This document shows positions 9,938-27,044 of a stretch of 33,244 nucleotides of DNA, in pieces (position 1 is the first letter of the stretch; each line of letters opens with the position of its first letter). A program made the position numbers and the translations under genes. Origin of the DNA: Actinomycetes bacterium (GTDB lineage Bacteria > Actinomycetota > Thermoleophilia > RBG-16-64-13); NCBI GenBank assembly GCA_024637035.1, contig JAGXFW010000031.1, positions 1 through 33,244 of the forward strand, written 5' to 3'. The notes beneath the pieces were generated by a model that was given only the letters and a program-made list of their open reading frames with translations, did not search any database and was not told the DNA's origin.

Positions 9938-11392
9938 CTACCAGTCGACGATCCTCCGCTGTCCCTTGAGTTCGCGCACGTGCGTGGCGTCCTGCACCAC
10001 TTCGAGGCACCCCTGATACGCACCCGCCTGGTCACGCATGGCGAAGTAGCGGATGTGCACGAACTTCGGCCCCAGCTCGATCCAGAATTCGGCCATGTCC
10101 TTGGTGCCGGCCTTGAACTCGGCGAGGATCTCTTCCACCTTGTCGAGGCTCTTGGGCGGATGGCAGTTACGCACCTCGCGCCCGATGGCCGCGGGGGAAC
10201 GGGGGAACACCCTCTCCCCTTCCGAATAGAAACGGACGCGGTCTTCGGCGTCGACATACGTGAGGTCGAAGGGAAGGTTGCGGAAGAGCAAGTCGATCTG
10301 CTCGGGGGTGAGTGCGCCCGTGCTGAGGGGCAACAGGAGTTCACCCTGTTCGGGGGCCCAGGTGTCGGCGGCCCAGCGGGCGTGGTCGCCGGCGGGGCCT
10401 TCGATCCAGGCATAGCCGATGTCGGCGTCGCCCGAGGCGATCTTGCGCCATTCGTCGGCCTCGATCACCTGCAGTGAGGTCGGGAAGAGGATCTTCTCTT
10501 CTTTGTAGACCATGTCGTCGACCATGCGCAGGGTCTCCGGCAGGGAGCGCAACAGAGTGGCGGCATCCTCGCGGCTGGCGTGGGCCCGATCCGCCTTGAT
10601 GCGCGTGCGGATGTCGTCGTCGAGCGCCCACATCACCTTCGTGGGGCCGGAGACGCCGTGTACCTCGAGCACCGGGAAGAGCTGGTTCTCCTTGCGCAGG
10701 TAGTGCACGTCGACCTGAGCGAGCCGCTCGAGTTCATGAGAGATGTCGGCCAAAGCGGCGTGCTTGGCCTCCTCGTCGGCGGGGGCGCCGAGAGCCTCGA
10801 GCGCGCACCGGAGAGCCGTGGTGATCTCGGTGGTCACCCGGTTCTCGCGCCGGTAGGAGGCGACAGGATGGTCGTCGGGCACAGCTGCCTCGGTGCCGTC
10901 GTCCAGCGCGTCCTTGAACACGCTCACGTGCACGTCGCAGAGACGCTGCACCTCTTCGACCGCCAAGCCTTCGGAGATCAGTGACTGCTCCATGAGCGCC
11001 ACCTCGGTGGCGTCCACGTCGCGCACCAGTTCGTCGAACCGAGCCTTCACATCATCGACGGCGGCGCCGTCGTGCAGATCCATGATGATGCCCTTCAACA
11101 GCACCTGTCGGCGCTCGCGCTCGTCGACATCGAGCCGAGGGGCCGCGCCGGACGTCTCCTCAGCCACGATCTCGTGCTGAGCCACGGCCTGCTTCACATC
11201 GTCGAGGAACTTCTCCACCGTCACGTTGCCCAAGCCCGCCGCTACCTCCAGCGACGCCACTCTGGCCATGGTGTTGTACAGCACCGGGTTCTTGAGCTTC
11301 TCGAACTCAGGCGTGTACTCGGCGAGCCAATCCTTCATGTACGGATACGCCTCACACAACTCGTGGATCTTCGTCTTGGCCGTGATCATCAT
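9938..11392 (-). CDS. DUF1858/DUF438/hemerythrin/PAS multidomain protein
   Basis: This 484-residue soluble protein has an N-terminal DUF1858-like segment (about 1-75, KIHELCEAYPYMKDWL), then a DUF438 region (about 90-165). A hemerythrin-like four-helix domain follows (about 170-325) with histidines and glutamates in DISHELERL, DVHYLRKENQLFP and MVYKEEKILFP. A C-terminal PAS-like domain (about 345-480) contains NCHPPKSLDKV and FVHIRYFAMRD. Proteins of this architecture occur in anaerobes, and hemerythrin domains bind a di-iron centre that can sense or hold O2 or NO. The start is the first of two ATGs; GGAGGAG lies in the end of the preceding amphi-Trp gene, six bases upstream, indicating one operon with it and the SQR-like gene. 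Function beyond redox or gas sensing is unknown. Confidence 0.88.
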   Translation of the reverse strand: MMITAKTKIHELCEAYPYMKDWLAEYTPEFEKLKNPVLYNTMARVASLEVAAGLGNVTVEKFLDDVKQAVAQHEIVAEETSGAAPRLDVDERERRQVLLKGIIMDLHDGAAVDDVKARFDELVRDVDATEVALMEQSLISEGLAVEEVQRLCDVHVSVFKDALDDGTEAAVPDDHPVASYRRENRVTTEITTALRCALEALGAPADEEAKHAALADISHELERLAQVDVHYLRKENQLFPVLEVHGVSGPTKVMWALDDDIRTRIKADRAHASREDAATLLRSLPETLRMVDDMVYKEEKILFPTSLQVIEADEWRKIASGDADIGYAWIEGPAGDHARWAADTWAPEQGELLLPLSTGALTPEQIDLLFRNLPFDLTYVDAEDRVRFYSEGERVFPRSPAAIGREVRNCHPPKSLDKVEEILAEFKAGTKDMAEFWIELGPKFVHIRYFAMRDQAGAYQGCLEVVQDATHVRELKGQRRIVDW

Positions 11393-11398
11393 GCTGGA

Positions 11399-11674
11399 CT
11401 ACTCCTCCGGCTCATCATCGGCCTGTGGGTCGTCGTCATCCTGGTCGATCGACCACTTGAGCTGGAACTCGAGTTCCTCTTCCGACTCACCGCGTTCGTG
11501 CTCGATGCTGATGACGGCGTTCGGAGGTATCGTGATGCGCTCACCGGCCACTCGGATGCGGAACTTCTCTCCCCGCTCTATGCTGTCGGCCAGGCGACGC
11601 AGCTTATCGACGAACTGGTCCGCGGGATAGCTCTTCTCGACGTCGCGCTGGGGCTTCTCCCCTTCTACAGACAC
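11399..11674 (-). CDS. amphi-Trp domain protein
   Basis: The 91-residue protein has the layout of the amphi-Trp domain: a helix YPADQFVDKLRRLADSIERG, a strand with RITIPPNA, and the closing EEELEFQLKWS with its characteristic Trp, followed by a very acidic tail. The GTG start at 11674 has GGAGG seven bases upstream. It lies between the SQR-like gene (75 bp) and the DUF438 gene (6 bp), all in one direction. The biochemical role of amphi-Trp proteins is not known to me; the operon suggests a link with sulfide or redox metabolism. Confidence 0.82.
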   Translation of the reverse strand: MSVEGEKPQRDVEKSYPADQFVDKLRRLADSIERGEKFRIRVAGERITIPPNAVISIEHERGESEEELEFQLKWSIDQDDDDPQADDEPEE

Positions 11675-11749: not shown

Positions 11750-12973
11750 CTACCAGCCGAAGTGCGACGAGGGCAAGTCGCGCTTGATCTTCTCCAGATA
11801 GTACCGCTCGAAGGCGCCTTTCATGTAGTGCGCCCACAGCCCCTTGCGGAGCACAGCCACGTTCCTAGGCGGGAGGAAGGGATCAGCCTTGATGTAGAAG
11901 GCGGTGTCGCCGGCGTCTGCGATGCACGTAGCGGGCAGCGTCAGACCATCGACAAGCTCGCCTTCGCCCAGGTCGGCGGCGATGTTCGTAGCCACGCGGA
12001 CGGCCATCTCTTCGGACATGTGCCCCGTCTTGGGCACACCCACCGGCACGGGGGTCGACACGGGCGGCGCCATGGCCACGGAGACTCCCGCTGCGTAGAT
12101 CTCGGGGAAGGCGGTGGAGCGGAGGTGTTGGTCGGTGGGGATGAAACCACGCGGGTTGCCGAGGCGCTCAGTGTCGCGCACCACCTGGGCGCCGAAGAAG
12201 GCCGGGATCAGCAGGGCGAGGTCGAACTCCATCTCGGAGCCGTCGCCGAGCGTCGCCTTGCCCGGCTCAACCTGCTTCAGCGCGGCGCTGACGGTCGAAC
12301 CGAGATGGCGCGAGCGGAACTCCGACTCCATCATGTTCTGGATGTCGCCGATGCCGTTCACCCCGAAATGGCCGATGAAGGGCTCCGGCGTGACCAGATG
12401 CAGGTCGAAGAGGTGGCGGCGCTTCTGCCGCCGAAGCTCCGTCTCGAGCATCATGATCAGCTCGTAGGCCGGGCCGATACAGCTGGCGCCGGGGTTGGCC
12501 CCGACGATCGCGCGACCCTTGGGCAGCGCGAGGAAGCGCTGGATGGCGGCTCGGGCGGCCACGGCTTGGTCGATCGTGAAGCACGTGTGCACGGTGCCGT
12601 CGGCGGGGTCTGAGCCCGGCACGTTCGACCAGTCGAGGTCGGCGCCTGTCGCCAGCACGAGGTTGTCGTAGGGGAGCGTGCGCCCGCCGGCGGTGGTGAC
12701 CGTATGTGCGGCCGTGTCGATAGACACGGCGCGGTCATGCACGAAGTTGATGCCTTTCGCGCCGAGCGGCCGGGCAAGGGGCACGGAGAGCCGCCCCGGG
12801 TCCCGCCAACCCATCATCACCCAGGGGATACTGGGCATGAAGATGAAGGCCTCGTCGGCCGAGATCACATCCACCGACACCCTGTCGCCAAGCTTCCGCT
12901 TGAGCTGGTACGCGGCGTTCACTCCAGCGAACGACCCACCCACCACGACCACCTTGTGTTGCGCGCTGCCCAT
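11750..12973 (-). CDS. Sulfide:quinone oxidoreductase-like flavoprotein
   Basis: SQR oxidises sulfide to polysulfide and passes electrons through FAD to the membrane quinone pool. This 407-residue protein starts with the FAD-binding VVVVGGSFAGVNAAYQL and has the second dinucleotide motif NLVLATGADLDW. It then shows GASCIGPAYELIMMLE and EPFIGHFGVNG, both characteristic of SQR. Three cysteines sit at 131, 165 and 350, close to the three catalytic cysteines of canonical SQRs. The C-terminus is amphipathic and basic (KGAFERYYLEKIKRDL), fitting monotopic membrane attachment. A run of five Gs lies four bases before the ATG. It heads a leftward operon and its promoter region overlaps the palindrome at 13060-13077, facing the DsrE/ArsR operon. 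A related NADH- or sulfur-linked flavoprotein is possible. Confidence 0.87.
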   Translation of the reverse strand: MGSAQHKVVVVGGSFAGVNAAYQLKRKLGDRVSVDVISADEAFIFMPSIPWVMMGWRDPGRLSVPLARPLGAKGINFVHDRAVSIDTAAHTVTTAGGRTLPYDNLVLATGADLDWSNVPGSDPADGTVHTCFTIDQAVAARAAIQRFLALPKGRAIVGANPGASCIGPAYELIMMLETELRRQKRRHLFDLHLVTPEPFIGHFGVNGIGDIQNMMESEFRSRHLGSTVSAALKQVEPGKATLGDGSEMEFDLALLIPAFFGAQVVRDTERLGNPRGFIPTDQHLRSTAFPEIYAAGVSVAMAPPVSTPVPVGVPKTGHMSEEMAVRVATNIAADLGEGELVDGLTLPATCIADAGDTAFYIKADPFLPPRNVAVLRKGLWAHYMKGAFERYYLEKIKRDLPSSHFGW

Positions 12974-13059
12974 GTGTCCCCCTTCGAAGTCACGCGGCGA
13001 AGGACGCCCGCTCCCCGTTCGGTATCTCGAGGGCAGGACGGCCTTGCCGCGAATCCACG

Positions 13060-13077
13060 GCTATATTGCAATATAGC
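13060..13077. promoter_or_regulatory. 18-bp perfect palindrome, probable ArsR-family operator
   Basis: GCTATATTGCAATATAGC is a perfect inverted repeat in a surrounding GC-rich sequence. It lies in the 225-bp space between the divergent SQR-like and DsrE genes, 87 bp and 122 bp from their starts. ArsR-family repressors bind AT-rich palindromes of this type, and an ArsR gene is the second gene of the rightward operon. The AT-rich arms could also be part of a -10 on either strand, so binding would block one or both promoters. The repeat is seen directly; the assignment to this ArsR is inference. Confidence 0.75.
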
Positions 13078-13198
13078 GATTTTCAGATAGTCTGGTGCAG
13101 ACGTGGAATTCCACATCGCGGACTCTGCCTCGGCCCCCGGGCTTCTTGCCGCACGAACCGGAGCCGCATGTCGGACCGCTACCCACAACGGAGGCGCC

Positions 13199-13552
13199 AT
13201 GCAGACCATCCTCTTCGCCCTCAACGACGGCCCGTACGGCTCCGAGCGCCCGTATAACGCGCTGCGCCACGCTCTCGCCCTCTCCCGGCGCGACGACACT
13301 CAGGTGCGGGTGTTCCTGACGGCCGACGCCACCGCCTGCGCCGTGGCCGGGCAGACGCTCCCCGAGGGCTACTACTCCATCGAACGCTTACTCAAGGGGT
13401 TGATAGCCAAAGACGTGCCCGTCGCCATATGAGGCTCGTGTATGGACGCCCGTGGCTTGGCGTCCGTGGCGGTGGTCGAAGGAGCGGCGCGCGCGTCGAT
13501 GGAGTTGCTCGCGCAGTGGACGGTCGAGGCCGACAAGGTGCTGATCTACTGA
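13199..13552 (+). CDS. YchN/DsrE-family protein, probable selenoprotein (Sec78 at in-frame UGA 13430-13432)
   Basis: DsrE/YchN proteins are small cytoplasmic sulfur-relay or persulfide-handling proteins. Reading from the ATG at 13199 (GGAG upstream), the frame gives MQTILFALNDGPYGSERPYN, QTLPEGYYSIERLLKGL and VPVAI, then meets TGA. It continues in the same frame with GSCMDARGLASVAVVEGAA and ends WTVEADKVLIY before a second TGA. The whole is 117 residues, the same length as E. coli YchN as I recall it. The UGA is codon 78, where YchN has the first cysteine of its CxxC (LCKTC). An intact family C-terminus after the UGA, plus a hairpin at 13442-13467, argues for selenocysteine insertion; a TGC/TGT to TGA nonsense mutation is the alternative. 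Cys81 would be the partner of Sec78. Stopping at the UGA would leave 77 residues lacking the active site. ArsR follows 19 bp downstream. Confidence 0.78.
13433..13467 (+). promoter_or_regulatory. Candidate bacterial SECIS element after UGA codon 78
   Basis: Directly after the UGA, ATGGACGCC (13442-13450) pairs with GGCGTCCGT (13459-13467), nine pairs including one G-U, enclosing the loop CGTGGCTT. The loop starts 18 nt after the UGA and has a G as its second base. Bacterial SECIS models as I recall them ask for a stem-loop within about 16-37 nt of the UGA with a G among the first two loop bases, so the geometry fits. SelB binding is inferred. GC-rich coding DNA forms hairpins by chance, so this is support rather than proof. 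Confidence 0.6.
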
Positions 13553-13571
13553 TGCGCCGGGGCGCCTCCGC

Positions 13572-13919
13572 ATGACCGAGAGCGATCGCATCGACGCGAC
13601 CATCCTGGAGCTGCACGCGCGGGTGTGCAAGACCATGGCCCATCCCGTGCGTCTCGCACTATTGAACGCCATGCGCGACGGCGAGCGGAGCGTCGGCGAG
13701 TTGGCCGAGGCGGCCGGCGTCGCCCAACCCATCGCATCCCAGCACCTCGCGACCCTCCGCGGCGAGGGTCTCGTGAACCACCAGCGACACGGCCAAGAGG
13801 TGCACTACAGCATCGCTCATCCGAAGATGATCGAAGCCTGCGACCTGCTACGCGAGGTGTTGTTCGACCGGCTGCGTGGCCAGAACGAGCTTACCCGACA
13901 CCTGGACACCACGCCCTAG
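13572..13919 (+). CDS. ArsR/SmtB-family transcriptional repressor
   Basis: The 115-residue protein is a typical ArsR winged helix: KTMAHPVRLALLNAM, then the helix-turn-helix SVGELAEAAGVAQPIASQHLATL and the wing LVNHQRHGQEVHYSI. It carries only two cysteines, Cys19 in the N-terminal helix and Cys90 in the C-terminal helix. The sulfide-responsive ArsR proteins SqrR and BigR use a comparable N-/C-terminal cysteine pair to form a polysulfide bridge. The spacing here (71) is slightly larger than I recall for SqrR, so redox sensing is plausible but not shown. It lies 19 bp after the DsrE gene and probably binds the palindrome at 13060-13077, repressing both divergent operons. Confidence 0.92.
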   Translation: MTESDRIDATILELHARVCKTMAHPVRLALLNAMRDGERSVGELAEAAGVAQPIASQHLATLRGEGLVNHQRHGQEVHYSIAHPKMIEACDLLREVLFDRLRGQNELTRHLDTTP

Positions 13920-13974: not shown

Positions 13975-14547
13975 ATGGCGATCGTCAAGAACTTCCTCGG
14001 CCGCGACATGGACGTGCCCGAGGACCGTCTGTACCACGCTGCGTCACACTACTGGTTCCGCGCGACCGTCGCCGGCGCCACCTCCGATGACGCAGGCGCC
14101 GATGCAGGCGACACGGGCGCCGACGCGGGCGCCGCGGCTGAGTACGACGTGGGCACGACGGAACCGGGCGTGGCCCTCACGGGCGGCCTCGTCGACCTCG
14201 AGGTACTGGCTGAAGCCGGTGCCGCCATCGTGGTGAGCGAGGAGGTGGCCTTCGCCACTACCAGGAAGGCCATCAAGTACTTCATGAGCCCTGTTGCCGG
14301 CATGGTGACCGCCGCCAACCCCTCCGCCACCGCCGAAGCCGCCAACGAGTCGCCCTACGGCACCTGGCTGTTCCGCATGACCTTGGCCGCCGATGCGGTG
14401 GCGACCCTCGTCGAGGCCGCGGCCTACGCGGCAAAGCTCGGCGCCTCCGAGCACGCGACCGACGCCGCGGCAGCGGCCGCCGTTGCCGCCAAGGCCGGCA
14501 AGGCGTCGCCCACGTGCCGGTCCATCTACAGCGGCATCAAGGAGTAG
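13975..14547 (+). CDS. GcvH-like lipoyl-domain protein with Ala/Asp-rich insertion
   Basis: The 190-residue protein matches the H-protein fold: VPEDRLYHAASHYWFRA corresponds to the usual N-terminal strand, GGLVDLEVL to the central part, and TTRKAIKYFMSPVAGMV to the lipoylation hairpin, with Lys98 as the likely lipoyl acceptor. ESPYGTWLFRM matches the end of the fold. Two features are unusual. Residues about 34-60 are a low-complexity Ala/Asp/Gly insertion, and the protein extends beyond the fold through an alanine-rich helix to CRSIYSGIKE with a lone Cys181. No glycine-cleavage genes are nearby. GcvH-like proteins are found with DsrE and other sulfur-transfer genes, where they are thought to carry sulfur intermediates, which fits this locus. 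AGGAG lies eight bases before the ATG. Confidence 0.8.
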   Translation: MAIVKNFLGRDMDVPEDRLYHAASHYWFRATVAGATSDDAGADAGDTGADAGAAAEYDVGTTEPGVALTGGLVDLEVLAEAGAAIVVSEEVAFATTRKAIKYFMSPVAGMVTAANPSATAEAANESPYGTWLFRMTLAADAVATLVEAAAYAAKLGASEHATDAAAAAAVAAKAGKASPTCRSIYSGIKE

Positions 14548-15940: not shown

Positions 15941-18775
15941 TCACCCCCCATACCTCCCCACCAACTCCGTCCGGCAGCTCCCGGGCAATCCCACCAGGTC
16001 GACGAGGGAGATGCGACGGATCTCTTGGTCGAGGAGGTCCTGGATGTCTGTGGGGAGTCCACTCGGTCGGGTGAGAAGGAGAATGCCTCCTCTCTTGGCC
16101 AGGAAGGGTCCGACCACCAGGGCGTCAGGGAAGTTCTCCCCTGTGGCGAGGGCGGTGTGGGAGAAGGAGAGTCCGACAGCCTTGGCGTAGGCCGCGACCA
16201 GGGCCGAGGTGTGGTAGCGATCCCGGCCCACCTTGGAGACCACCTGGGTCACCGAAGCCGGGAGTTTGACGTTGGTGCCGACCACCAGAGCCTTGGTGAC
16301 CCCCAAGTCCCCGAAGGCGTCGCGGGTCACCGGGGGCAGGGGGCCCGAGGCCGGGGTGAGGAGGATGGCCCAGCCCATCTTGGCGGCCAGAGGCGCGGCG
16401 GAGAGAGCGTCGGGGAACTTGTCCCCGGGCACAAGGACGATGCGGAAGAGCGATCCCTGCTTCTTCTTCAGCTCCTCAGCGATCAGGGTGGCGGTGTGGT
16501 AGCGGTCACGGCCCACGAAGGTCTTCACCGTCGCTGTGGGGAGGGCGGCTTGCAGTTGCGTCTTGACGTTCTGGGGGAGCCCGATGAAAAGCACCGTCTT
16601 TGGGTTCAATCGTTTGAGCTCCGCCCGGACGGCGTCGGTGAGGCCGCCTGAGGGGGTGAGGATGACCGGGCCGTTGTAGGCTTTGGCGAGAGGGGCGGCG
16701 GCCAGGGCATCGGGGAAGTCGTCCCCCTTGGCCAGGACCACGGCCGGGGCGCCATTCGGGTAGGCGGTCTTCGAAACCAGGATGGCGGTCAGGTAGCGGT
16801 CTGCACCGGCCAGCATGCGGTAGGTGGGCGGGGCGAAAGTGACGGTGAAGGTGACCGGGGTCGTGCCTTCCGCTGTTGTCCAGGTGCCGTCGCTGAAGGC
16901 GGCGGGCCACATCTCCCAGGTGCCGATCTGGTCCGGGGTGAGGGAGACGGTGAACCTCTTCTGCTCTCCCGGGGCCAGGGTGAGGGTGTCAGAGGCCTTC
17001 TGACCTCGGAAGGCACCCTGCGGGTCGCGGATGACCAGGTTGACGGCCTCCCAGGTGCCGGCGGTGCCTCCGGTGTTCTTGAGAGTGAAGGAGATGGAGA
17101 GGGCCTTGCCCTTGTAGTAGGGGGGGGCGGGTAGGGAGAGGGATCCGATGTGGGTGAGGGTGGCGGGACGCGGCTTCACCTCAAGGGTGAGGGAGGGGTT
17201 GGCTCCCACGGTGGCAGGGGTGCCGTTCTGTGCCGCAGTCACCCAGCCCTTCCAGGTGCCGACCACGCCGGGTGCCAGGGTGAAGTCGAAGGTCTTGGAC
17301 GCACCGCCAGCCAGGGTGAGGGTGCGCTGCAGGATGCGGTCCAGGTTCTCGGACGTCGGGGTGCGAAGGGCCAGGGTGACATCCGTCCAGGTGCCCTCGA
17401 GGTCCCCGGTGTTCTTCAGGGTGAAGGAGATGGGGACGGTGTCTCCAGGATAGTAGGAGCCGGGCGGGTAGGCGGGCAAGGTGTGGAGGGTGAGGGTGGC
17501 AGCGAGCGGGATGGCCACCGTGAAGCCCACCGTCTTTGTCGTCGTGTTGTTGGACTTGTCCTTGGCCGTCACCACCAGGGAGTAGGTGCCGTTCTTGGAG
17601 ACGGGGGTGCCGGAGGTGAAGGCGGCGCCGTTCAGGGTGGCGACCACGGAGGCCAGGTTGGCGTCGGTGGCGGAGAAGGTGGGAGTGACGGGGGCGGCGT
17701 AGGTGGTGCCCTCGGTGACTCCGGCGATGGAGACTACGGGGGGGGTGGTGTCGGTGGGGGGTGGTGGGGATACGAAGGTGAGGCGGATGGCATCGAAGAC
17801 CACCCTTGGCGATTTCGTCCGGTCAGTGTACGGTTCGCCAGTGTAGTCGTCCAGTTCAATCCACGCCGACCCCTGACTCAGCTGATACGTCCCAAGGTCG
17901 ACCCACACATTCCCATGGCTGCTTTGGTTCACCACCTTGTGCACTAAGCCTGACGCCGTGTTGATGTGGTAGTCGGCCTTGACACTCTTGTTTGCCAGGC
18001 CCGGAATGTAGGCTTCGACTTTGTAGTGCGCTGTCCCCGAGATCTTTGAAAGATCGAATGTCCATCGGATGTAGTTCCAGCGTGACGACCAAACGTACGT
18101 GAAGATGCCCGAGCCGGAATAGCCGTTGTTGGTCGGCCACCAGTAGTCGGGGCCGGACTTCTGAAAGCCTGAGTCCAAGGGGCACACTATGTTGGCGGGG
18201 TCTTTGTGGGTGCCGGGCAAGTCCTTCACATGGATGAACCTGCTGGGCCATCCCCCGATCTTCGGGCTGCCGGGCCATGCCGTGTACTTCCTCCATGAGT
18301 TATGGAGGTCGTAGTTCATCTCGGTGATGACGACTGAGCCGTTGGCGTTGACTGACTCGACGTATGCTACATGACCAGACCACCAAGCCACGGCCCCGCG
18401 GGCGGGTGTAGTGTCAACGCGTATTCCCGCTGCGCCCGCCGCACTCGCCCAATTGGACGCATCGCTCCACTTGGGCCCCAGGTAATAGTTGTGGAATGCC
18501 ACACCATTCACATTGTTCAGCTGAAATGCGACCCAAGACGTGCACTGCCCTTGGAAGAAGTTCCATTTGTCTGCAACACAACCTGTGTTGCTCGCACCCT
18601 CATCTCAGTCGGGAGCGCTGGGATACGGATAGCCATACTCGGACGGCACATTGTTCGCCGCCTGGGCAGGGGACGTCGTAACGAAGAAGACGCTGCCAAG
18701 AACGGCGATGCAGCAGACAATGACGGTCAGCACAACCCTCGGAGCGCAAGCGAATTCCCCCCGCATTCGGCTCAT
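15941..18775 (-). CDS. Secreted CHAP amidase with cell-wall-binding repeats; in-frame UGA at codon 57
   Basis: Starting at the ATG at 18775, the frame encodes a signal peptide ending SPAQA (cleavage near 39) and then YGYPYPSAPD. It meets TGA at 18605-18607 and continues in frame for 887 codons. After the UGA come a CHAP domain with catalytic Cys78 (GQCTSWVAF), His135 (GHVAYVE) and Glu152/Asn154 (ITEMNYD), a golvesin-like beta domain (about 195-333) and an Ig-like domain (342-422). Two similar NTGxxxGTW beta repeats (about 440-650) and three cell-wall-binding type-2 repeats (about 655-940) end the protein. CHAP domains cleave peptidoglycan. A start at the downstream GTG 18511 would lose both the signal peptide and Cys78, so it cannot be the functional form. 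Either the UGA is read (selenocysteine; a hairpin follows) or the gene is interrupted by one mutation. Residue 57 faces Cys66, so a Cys pair may be ancestral; Trp is also possible. Confidence 0.75.
18573..18604 (-). promoter_or_regulatory. Candidate SECIS-like hairpin after UGA codon 57 of the CHAP gene
   Basis: On the minus strand GCAACACA and TGTGTTGC pair perfectly (18573-18591) around the loop GGT. The loop begins 21 nt after the UGA and its first two bases are G, within the geometry reported for bacterial SECIS elements. If the top A-U pair opens, the loop reads AGGUU, close to the AGGUCU loop of E. coli fdhF. Function is inferred. Confidence 0.42.
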
Positions 18776-22679: not shown

Positions 22680-24953
22680 TTGGCTGGAGTGCACACGGTG
22701 GAAGGCCACGCCAAGGGCGGCGGACTCCACACGCTCTTGGGGGACCTCGACCCCAAGCAACAAGAGGCGGTGCTCCACGGAGACGAGCCGCTACTGATCA
22801 TCGCGGGGGCCGGCACGGGCAAGACCACGACGCTCGCGCACCGCGTGGCACATCTCATCACGGGTGGAGTCAATCCGGCCCGAATACTGCTGCTCACCTT
22901 CTCGCGCCGAGCCGCATCGGAGATGCTGCGGCGTGCCGATTCGGCCCTCCGGAGGGCCGAGGCCGCCGCGCGGGCCGGCGGCGCTCCCACCAACGGCGGC
23001 GCTGAGCGACCGCCACCCATGGCTTCCATACCGGCGGGCAGTCGAGTGTGGGGCGGCACCTTCCACGCCACCGCCGCCCGCCTGCTCCGCATCCATGGAC
23101 GCGACATCGGGCTCGACCCTGGCTTTACCATCATCGACCGGGCCGACTCCGAGGATCTCATGGGTGCCGTACGCACCAGACTCGGGCTCTCGCGGAACGA
23201 CCGCCGCTTTCCGCAGAAGTCCACGTGTCTCGACATCTACAGCCACTGCGTCAACACGCGGCACCCGCTGGAGAAGGCGCTCCGCACGCACTTCCCTTGG
23301 TGTGCCGAGCACGCCGACGAGCTTCGCCGCCTGTTCTCCGGCTACGTGGACCGCAAGGCCGAGGGCTCGGTGCTCGACTACGATGACCTGCTCGTCTTCT
23401 GGTGCGGCCTCCTCTCCGACCCGGCGGCCGGCGCCGCCGTGCGGGCACGCTTCGACCGGGTGCTGGTCGACGAATACCAAGACACGAACGCCCTCCAAGC
23501 CGAGATCCTCGCCCTTCTCCGCCCCGATGGACGTGGCCTGACCGTGGTCGGCGACGACGCCCAGTCGATATATGCCTTCCGAGGTGCCACGGTTCGCAAC
23601 ATCCTGGATTTCCCCACGCAGTTCCAGGGCACCGAGGTGATCACCCTCGATCAGAACTTCCGCAGCACACCGGCGATCCTCGACGTCACGAATCGCGTGA
23701 TCGCACAGGCCCGCGAGCGCTACGAGAAAGACCTGTGGAGTCGGCGTCCCACGGGTGAACGCCCGAATCTCGTCACCTGTTGCGACGAAGACGAGCAGAC
23801 TCGCTTCGTGGTCACACGCATCCTGGAGCACCGCGAGCAGGGCGTACCGCTCCGTAAGATGGCCGTACTCTTCCGGGCGGCGCATCACAGCCTCACGCTG
23901 GAGATGGAACTCGGCCGACGCAATATCCCATACCACAAGTACGGCGGACTCAAGTTCATGGAGACGGCCCACGTCAAAGACCTCGTGGCCTTCCTGCGTC
24001 TTGCCGAGAACCCCCGCGACGAGATGGCCGGCCTGCGCGTGCTTCAACTGCTCCCAGGGGTCGGGCCGCGCCGAGCCGCGGAGTTTCTCGGGCTGCTGCG
24101 GGAGGCGCCCGGCGCCCTGTCCTCAAGCGACGTCGACAGCACCGAGGCTCCAGGCGACGGCTCCGACGCCGCCGGGATTCCCGCGCCCGATGTCTCCCGC
24201 TCCGACCCGGCTCCCAGTCCTGGTCCCTTTGCCGCGTGGCACCAGGTGCGGCCGCCAGAAGCGGCGGCCGCTCTCTGGCCGGGGCTGGTGCGACTCATGG
24301 ACGGGCTCTCCGTCGCCGACCCGGGGCCTCCGTCGGTGCAGGTCGAACGCGTACACGCCTTCTACCGTCCGATCGCGGAGGGCCTCTACGACAGCCCGGA
24401 GTCGCGGCTGGCCGACCTCGAAGCGCTCGCCCGGCTCGCGGTGCGCACACCCGACCGCGCGCGATTCCTGGCCGACATGGCCCTCGACCCGCCGTCCTGG
24501 ACGGGCGACCTGGCGGGGCCGCCGGTCCTCGACGAGGACTACCTGATACTCAGCACGATGCACTCAGCCAAGGGTCTGGAGTGGGATGCAGTCTTCGTCA
24601 TCCACGCCGCCGACGGCAACATCCCGTCGGACATGTCCACGGGGTCCGCCGAGGAGATCGACGAGGAACGCCGCCTCTTCTACGTCGCGCTCACCCGGGC
24701 GCGCGACTACCTCTACGTCTGCTGCCCTTTCCGCTATCACACAGTGCCCAGGCGGCCCGCCGATCCCTTCGGGTATGCTCAGGTCAGCCGCTTCCTCTCG
24801 CCCGACGTGCGCTCGGTCATGGGGTTCGAGACGGCTGAAGCCTTGCTCGCGCACGACACCGATGGCGGCACTGGCGAGGGGCGGCTCGCCGCCGATCGAG
24901 CGGGGTGCGTCACGGTCGCCGACATCCGGGCCGCGATCAAGAGTTCCTGGTAG
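22680..24953 (+). CDS. UvrD/Rep/PcrA-type ATP-dependent DNA helicase
   Basis: A superfamily 1A 3'-5' helicase of 757 residues. Seen motifs are I (IIAGAGTGKTTT), Ia (LLTFSRRAASEM), II (VLVDEYQDTN), III (VVGDDAQSIYAFRGA), IV (LDQNFRSTPAIL), V (LSTMHSAKGLEWDAVFV) and VI (RRLFYVALTRARDYLYV), so it should be active in DNA repair or replication restart. The TTG at 22680 is the best start because AGGAGG stands five bases upstream; the open frame reaches far further upstream but overlaps the divergent Fe-S gene. An insertion of about 60 residues rich in Ser, Asp and Pro interrupts domain 2B. It lacks a nuclease domain. The 3' end overlaps the convergent MFS gene by 17 bases. Confidence 0.93.
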   Translation: MAGVHTVEGHAKGGGLHTLLGDLDPKQQEAVLHGDEPLLIIAGAGTGKTTTLAHRVAHLITGGVNPARILLLTFSRRAASEMLRRADSALRRAEAAARAGGAPTNGGAERPPPMASIPAGSRVWGGTFHATAARLLRIHGRDIGLDPGFTIIDRADSEDLMGAVRTRLGLSRNDRRFPQKSTCLDIYSHCVNTRHPLEKALRTHFPWCAEHADELRRLFSGYVDRKAEGSVLDYDDLLVFWCGLLSDPAAGAAVRARFDRVLVDEYQDTNALQAEILALLRPDGRGLTVVGDDAQSIYAFRGATVRNILDFPTQFQGTEVITLDQNFRSTPAILDVTNRVIAQARERYEKDLWSRRPTGERPNLVTCCDEDEQTRFVVTRILEHREQGVPLRKMAVLFRAAHHSLTLEMELGRRNIPYHKYGGLKFMETAHVKDLVAFLRLAENPRDEMAGLRVLQLLPGVGPRRAAEFLGLLREAPGALSSSDVDSTEAPGDGSDAAGIPAPDVSRSDPAPSPGPFAAWHQVRPPEAAAALWPGLVRLMDGLSVADPGPPSVQVERVHAFYRPIAEGLYDSPESRLADLEALARLAVRTPDRARFLADMALDPPSWTGDLAGPPVLDEDYLILSTMHSAKGLEWDAVFVIHAADGNIPSDMSTGSAEEIDEERRLFYVALTRARDYLYVCCPFRYHTVPRRPADPFGYAQVSRFLSPDVRSVMGFETAEALLAHDTDGGTGEGRLAADRAGCVTVADIRAAIKSSW

Positions 24954-27016: not shown

Positions 27017-27044
27017 GTCCGAGGAGCCGGCCGGCTCCTCGGAC
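27017..27044. terminator. 28-bp perfect palindrome between convergent genes
   Basis: Fourteen bases starting GTCCGAGGAGCC are followed directly by their exact reverse complement. The RNA of either strand would fold into a very stable hairpin of about twelve pairs with a tight loop. Placed between the CoA-binding gene (stop at 26941) and the aldehyde dehydrogenase (stop at 27055), it is well positioned as a bidirectional terminator. It lacks a U-run. Confidence 0.7.

Follow-up and report, generated by a model that had tools for sequence, protein, structure and literature searches.

Does the dsrE gene that lies between genes for a sulfide:quinone oxidoreductase (SQR)-like flavoprotein and an ArsR/SmtB-type regulator end at an in-frame TGA, or is this codon read as selenocysteine (Sec), and what might the three genes do together? 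We analyzed this question in a 33,244-nucleotide stretch of an actinobacterial genome (contig JAGXFW010000031.1), hereafter called the window, and in related genomes, several of which are metagenome assemblies. The gene order, with SQR diverging from dsrE-arsR, had been proposed in an earlier note on this DNA and is borne out by the homology of SQR, DsrE and ArsR (Table 1); dsrE and arsR are separated by 19 bp. The same arrangement with a Sec-type dsrE was found in seven copies from six genomes of the window's family (two in G070 and one each in G000, G052, G076, G080 and G097), and a GcvH-related gene is located 3′ of arsR in 5/10 copies. In Acidobacteria, an SQR with approximately 50–53% identity adjoins a DsrE with Cys instead of Sec on the same strand, forming SQR-DsrE operons. 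We conclude that the locus is a genuine conserved sulfur-handling gene group of an uncultured actinobacterial lineage.

Table 1 Features of the SQR–dsrE–arsR locus, with positions in the window.
Feature	Position	Strand	Description	Basis
SQR	11750–12973	−	407 aa	homology
Perfect 18-bp palindrome	13060–13077		GCTATATTGCAATATAGC	
Conserved 28-bp block	13066–13093	+	candidate dsrE promoter with ArsR-operator-like symmetry	
Ribosome-binding site	13190–13194	+	GGAGG before the dsrE ATG	sequence
dsrE(Sec)	13199–13552	+	YchN-like, 117 residues, predicted Sec78 in UxxC	homology, frame conservation
In-frame TGA	13430–13432	+	predicted selenocysteine codon	conservation in family copies
Candidate bacterial SECIS hairpin	13444–13465	+	7-bp stem GGACGCC/GGCGTCC, 8-nt loop CGTGGCTT	
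arsR	13572–13919	+	ArsR/SmtB-type, 115 aa; Cys19 (α1), Asn32 (α2), Cys90 (α5)	
GcvH-related (lipoyl-domain-like) protein gene	13975–14547	+		homology

Some further features of the surroundings are of note. Beside SQR, the minus strand encodes at 9938–11392 and 11399–11674 a DUF1858-DUF438-hemerythrin-PAS protein and an amphi-Trp domain protein, which likewise adjoin SQR in a sister genome. A cell-wall protein with CHAP, golvesin C-terminal and three cell-wall-binding (CWB2) stretches is encoded at 15941–18511 (minus strand). In two other copies of the locus (L052, 7449–8333, and L053, 7629–8501, both on the minus strand), the ArsR frame stays open up to the start of the GcvH-related protein; either the two are fused, or they overlap in the same frame and the second has an internal start. 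An Rfam search of 11–15 kb found no RNA family, and a generic promoter and terminator scan gave no match.

The dsrE gene had been identified correctly in the earlier note, but its in-frame TGA had gone unnoticed: the ordinary open reading frame stops at the TGA after codon 77, whereas the conserved frame spans 13199–13552. Beyond the TGA, this frame reads VAI-U-GSCMDARGLAS... and ends at a second TGA (13550–13552), and the match to the DsrE domain (PF02635, 67.6 bits, residues 4–115) extends across the internal codon. The TGA is placed exactly at the first Cys of a CxxC motif (VAI-U-GSC-MDARG), which is Cys in E. coli YchN and other homologues. In a search of 299 class members, each of the ten family copies (8 genomes; 65–94% identical to that of the window) carries exactly one in-frame TGA, always at this codon, compared with 0/25 matches from other families of the class; dsrE was not found in 10 of the 18 family genomes searched. 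In a phylogenetic tree, the family copies form one clade (support 100/98). The TGA position is occupied by Cys in 72/80 named homologues, which come from many phyla, and the remaining eight comprise six members of the window's family together with the sequences L135 and L149. These latter two represent a second Sec-DsrE type with the motif AT-U-KSCCDARG or AT-U-QSCCEARG (L135 at approximately 1789, L149 at approximately 2405), in which the codon is also TGA and which occurs in one assembly each of Chloroflexi and Pseudomonadota. The tree (support 74/83 for this distant pair) is compatible with a single origin as well as with multiple origins of Sec-DsrE.

The window's genome is equipped for the use of Sec, with a tRNA-Sec above the Rfam cut-off, a SelB above its cut-off, a SelA encoded directly before SelB, and a SelD that itself contains an in-frame TGA. 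Sec-containing SelD is a familiar form of this protein. Across the Sec-DsrE genomes, SelB scored above the cut-off in 7/8, the exception being a 76% complete assembly. Because the TGA occurs at one codon in ten family copies, relatives have Cys at this position and the Sec machinery is present, we infer Sec insertion at the internal UGA, and DsrE is very probably a full-length selenoprotein. A true stop, be it in a pseudogene, in a gene for a truncated protein of 77 residues or as a sequencing error, would agree with standard open reading frame calling, which ends DsrE at 13432. This explanation is nevertheless highly improbable in view of the complete Sec apparatus, the retention of the TGA at the same codon down to 65% identity, and the conservation of the sequence 3′ of it, since a pseudogene would not keep its frame; its pseudogene and sequencing-error variants were rejected on the conservation in ten copies. 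Genome-wide reassignment of TGA was also rejected, as TGA serves as the stop codon in several of these genes.

A candidate SECIS-like hairpin, whose stem begins 11 nt 3′ of the TGA, was assessed for its conservation. The stem positions pair in 96.8% of cells in nine distinct copies versus 29–49% with the partners slid, and the Arg codon in the loop is CGT (CGU in the RNA) in 10/10 copies, compared with a CGT share of Arg codons of 2/52 elsewhere in these genes, 15/166 in the SQR genes and 12/67 at the same loop site of Cys homologues, although the copies are related and neither the pairing nor the codon counts are independent. In two copies, one stem pair has changed in a compensatory manner, both changes being at synonymous third positions (GAC..GCG to GAT..GCA). 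The stem ranks in the top 2.5–10% versus synonymous recodings, and the hairpin is unremarkable versus plain shuffles of a 58-nt stretch. It supports the Sec reading without carrying it.

DsrE-like selenoproteins with UxxC were described previously in the Sargasso Sea set (PMC1088965), in Desulfovibrio vulgaris (PMC1794560) and in a review (PMC13188914). Compared by their described features, they share with the window's protein the PF02635 domain and the UxxC motif, and their SECIS-like hairpin after the UGA has a candidate counterpart in the window, whereas the protein studied here belongs to an actinobacterial family and is tied to SQR and ArsR. Among solved structures, the family profile matches only E. 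coli YchN (PDB 1jx7; E 1e-29), which has the same length and a CxxC at the same place, but Cys where the window's DsrE has the predicted Sec. In a literature search, we found no paper joining DsrE, SQR and ArsR, and none on TsoR with ArsR or YchN with DsrE.

The putative partner enzyme matches the SQR of A. ferrooxidans (PDB 3sz0) over its full length (E 4.4e-85). Its Cys165 and Cys350 correspond to the catalytic residues Cys160 and Cys356, so that the catalytic pair is present; in contrast, the column of Cys128 holds Phe, with a Cys (Cys131) one residue earlier. All three Cys are invariant in six family copies. A selenoprotein subtype of SQR (NF049943) was ruled out for the window's protein (100 bits versus a cut-off of 525).

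As a next point, we consider the region between SQR and dsrE-arsR, where the perfect 18-bp palindrome described in the earlier note was confirmed. Allowing up to three mismatches, no other match was found in the window or the 3.57-Mb genome, a check which that note had suggested. Perfect palindromes of at least 18 bp arose in 6/3000 shuffles of the intergenic region (12974–13198), AT-rich perfect palindromes occurred at a mean of 0.0 per whole-window shuffle, and the GC content is 33% for the palindrome versus 66% for the window. However, the right 12 bp are conserved in the family, whereas the left 6 bp are conserved only in the genus: the left arm GCTATA is matched at 0–3/6 positions outside the orthologous pair formed by the window and one sister genome, and the exact conservation of the palindrome rests on this sister genome. 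The best other near-match (G000:C3:67104), located within an open reading frame, was rejected as a second operator. Elsewhere in the window, long GC-rich perfect palindromes of 20 and 28 bp are found at 22941–22960 and 27017–27044, for which a role as terminators is one possibility.

The upstream regions of the family share a block with the outline TTGCAAYATNGCNAT-N6-ATATNNT. Its distance to the start of dsrE is 105–106 bp in the window and the sister orthologue and 33–40 bp in the other copies. Family copies match the window's block at 17–26/28 positions versus approximately 13 in shuffles, and the weakest match (L056) is the only one reached by shuffles (3/300). The block may be read as a candidate promoter with a −35 element TTGCAA (13066–13071), a 16-bp spacer and a −10 element TAGTCT (13088–13093; TATNNT in the family), but a strict consensus promoter scan does not call it. 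Symmetric sequences within it include TTGCAATATTGCAA, a perfect 14-mer, in L049 and ATATCGC-N6-GCGATAT in L056. Since conservation of the palindrome's left arm is confined to the orthologous pair, it is the 28-bp promoter/operator-like block that, judged by sequence, forms the conserved unit, with the perfect 18-mer as its local extension. The block is also present 5′ of dsrE-arsR in three copies (L052, L053 and L056) with no SQR homologue in the stretches fetched. Therefore, the block follows dsrE-arsR and the control of SQR is uncertain; a control of SQR via the block is possible.

The ArsR protein matches HTH_5 and HTH_metalloreg, and its predicted structure shows an ArsR winged-helix fold with helices at residues 9–22, 25–33, 41–48, 52–64 and 84–112 (pLDDT 90.4 for a model built on 42 sequences; AlphaFold without alignment gave 50.6). 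As the earlier note had stated, the protein has just two Cys, and the model places them in the terminal helices α1 and α5. Its further claim that they are positioned as in SqrR and BigR did not hold: SqrR/BigR/HlyU-type persulfide sensors (SSN cluster 4, PMC10509353; SoxR, PMC10451225) share with the window's ArsR the fold, two Cys and a sulfur-gene neighborhood, but their defining pair is located in α2 and α5 (PMC10509353). In the sequence comparison, the α2 Cys of BigR aligns with Asn32, and BigR has Val in the Cys90 column. The alignment does not reach the α5 Cys of BigR; extrapolation presumably places it near Phe98. The score against the NCBIfam BigR model (57.5) is below its cut-off of 155. 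Foldseek ranked M. tuberculosis Rv0081 (PDB 6jmi, 36% identity) first, with SqrR and BigR lower at similar scores; Rv0081 differs in gene context and has no Cys in the Cys19 column. Cys19 and Cys90 are invariant in nine family copies, and 26 wider relatives all have Cys19, but only eight of them have Cys at position 90, which is otherwise occupied by Phe, Tyr, Ile or Val. By this comparison, Cys19 is a trait of the wider subfamily, independent of Cys90, and thus Cys19 by itself may account for the chemistry in many members. Relatives of this ArsR adjoin DsrE genes elsewhere (L158, L166).

Judged by its gene content, a sulfur-response module is well supported. Our preferred reading, to which we assign a probability of about 0.6, is a sulfide or sulfane-sulfur response module consisting of SQR, Sec-DsrE and a self-repressing ArsR. 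SQR would oxidise sulfide at the membrane to persulfide or polysulfide, and the YchN-like DsrE, with Sec in UxxC, would take up or reduce the sulfane sulfur derived from SQR; its DsrE family and the UxxC motif suggest a role as carrier or reductase. ArsR, cotranscribed with dsrE, would repress the operon by binding within the dsrE promoter, and the sulfur signal would modify ArsR and cause its release, most likely via Cys19 with or without Cys90. The simplest function of such a module would be the handling of sulfane sulfur from sulfide oxidation. The parts of this reading that concern the binding of ArsR to the block and its inducer, the function of DsrE and a possible control of SQR are what we infer from the locus.

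Other explanations differ mainly in what ArsR binds and senses. It could be of the SqrR/BigR type, with a dimer bound to the 18-bp palindrome and polysulfide bridging Cys19 and Cys90, whereby both promoters would be released. This mechanism fits a perfect palindrome that is unique in the genome and flanked by sulfur genes on both sides, BigR as the best sequence match among solved structures, and two Cys that are invariant in the family; it is nevertheless unlikely, given that conservation of the palindrome's left arm does not extend beyond the genus, that the Cys pair does not occupy the α2/α5 positions (PMC10509353) and that Cys19 is retained where Cys90 is replaced by Phe or Tyr. Alternatively, ArsR might sense a metal or metalloid, hypoxia, peroxide or a selenium compound, with the sulfur genes as output only. 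The SSN cluster of the top fold neighbor Rv0081 includes members linked to the hypoxic response (PMC10509353), ArsR is matched by general metalloregulator models, and selenium is a conceivable signal for an operon that encodes a selenoprotein. Yet sulfur genes surround arsR throughout the family, no arsenic or metal transporter is among the neighboring genes examined, and the ArsR sequence is without the CxC metal motif of α3, which leaves this alternative with a low but appreciable likelihood. Similarly tentative is a selenium-dependent version of the module, in which Sec-DsrE would take the sulfane sulfur from SQR and would be controlled by a new kind of ArsR sensor that relies on an α1–α5 Cys pair and may respond to selenium status in addition to sulfane sulfur.

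Sequence data have provided examples of DsrE-like selenoproteins since 2005, and their functions were still described as largely unknown in a 2026 review (PMC13188914). The DsrE of the window very probably belongs to this known, as yet uncharacterised type, and it is coupled here to SQR and an ArsR. With SQR as a clear partner, a regulator and a defined candidate promoter, the substrate of DsrE becomes testable, namely sulfane sulfur from sulfide oxidation. Selenoprotein genes of this kind get shortened by ordinary annotation. The occurrence of Sec or Cys across related families offers a natural comparison, and the locus reveals an ArsR subfamily with a different Cys pair next to sulfur genes.
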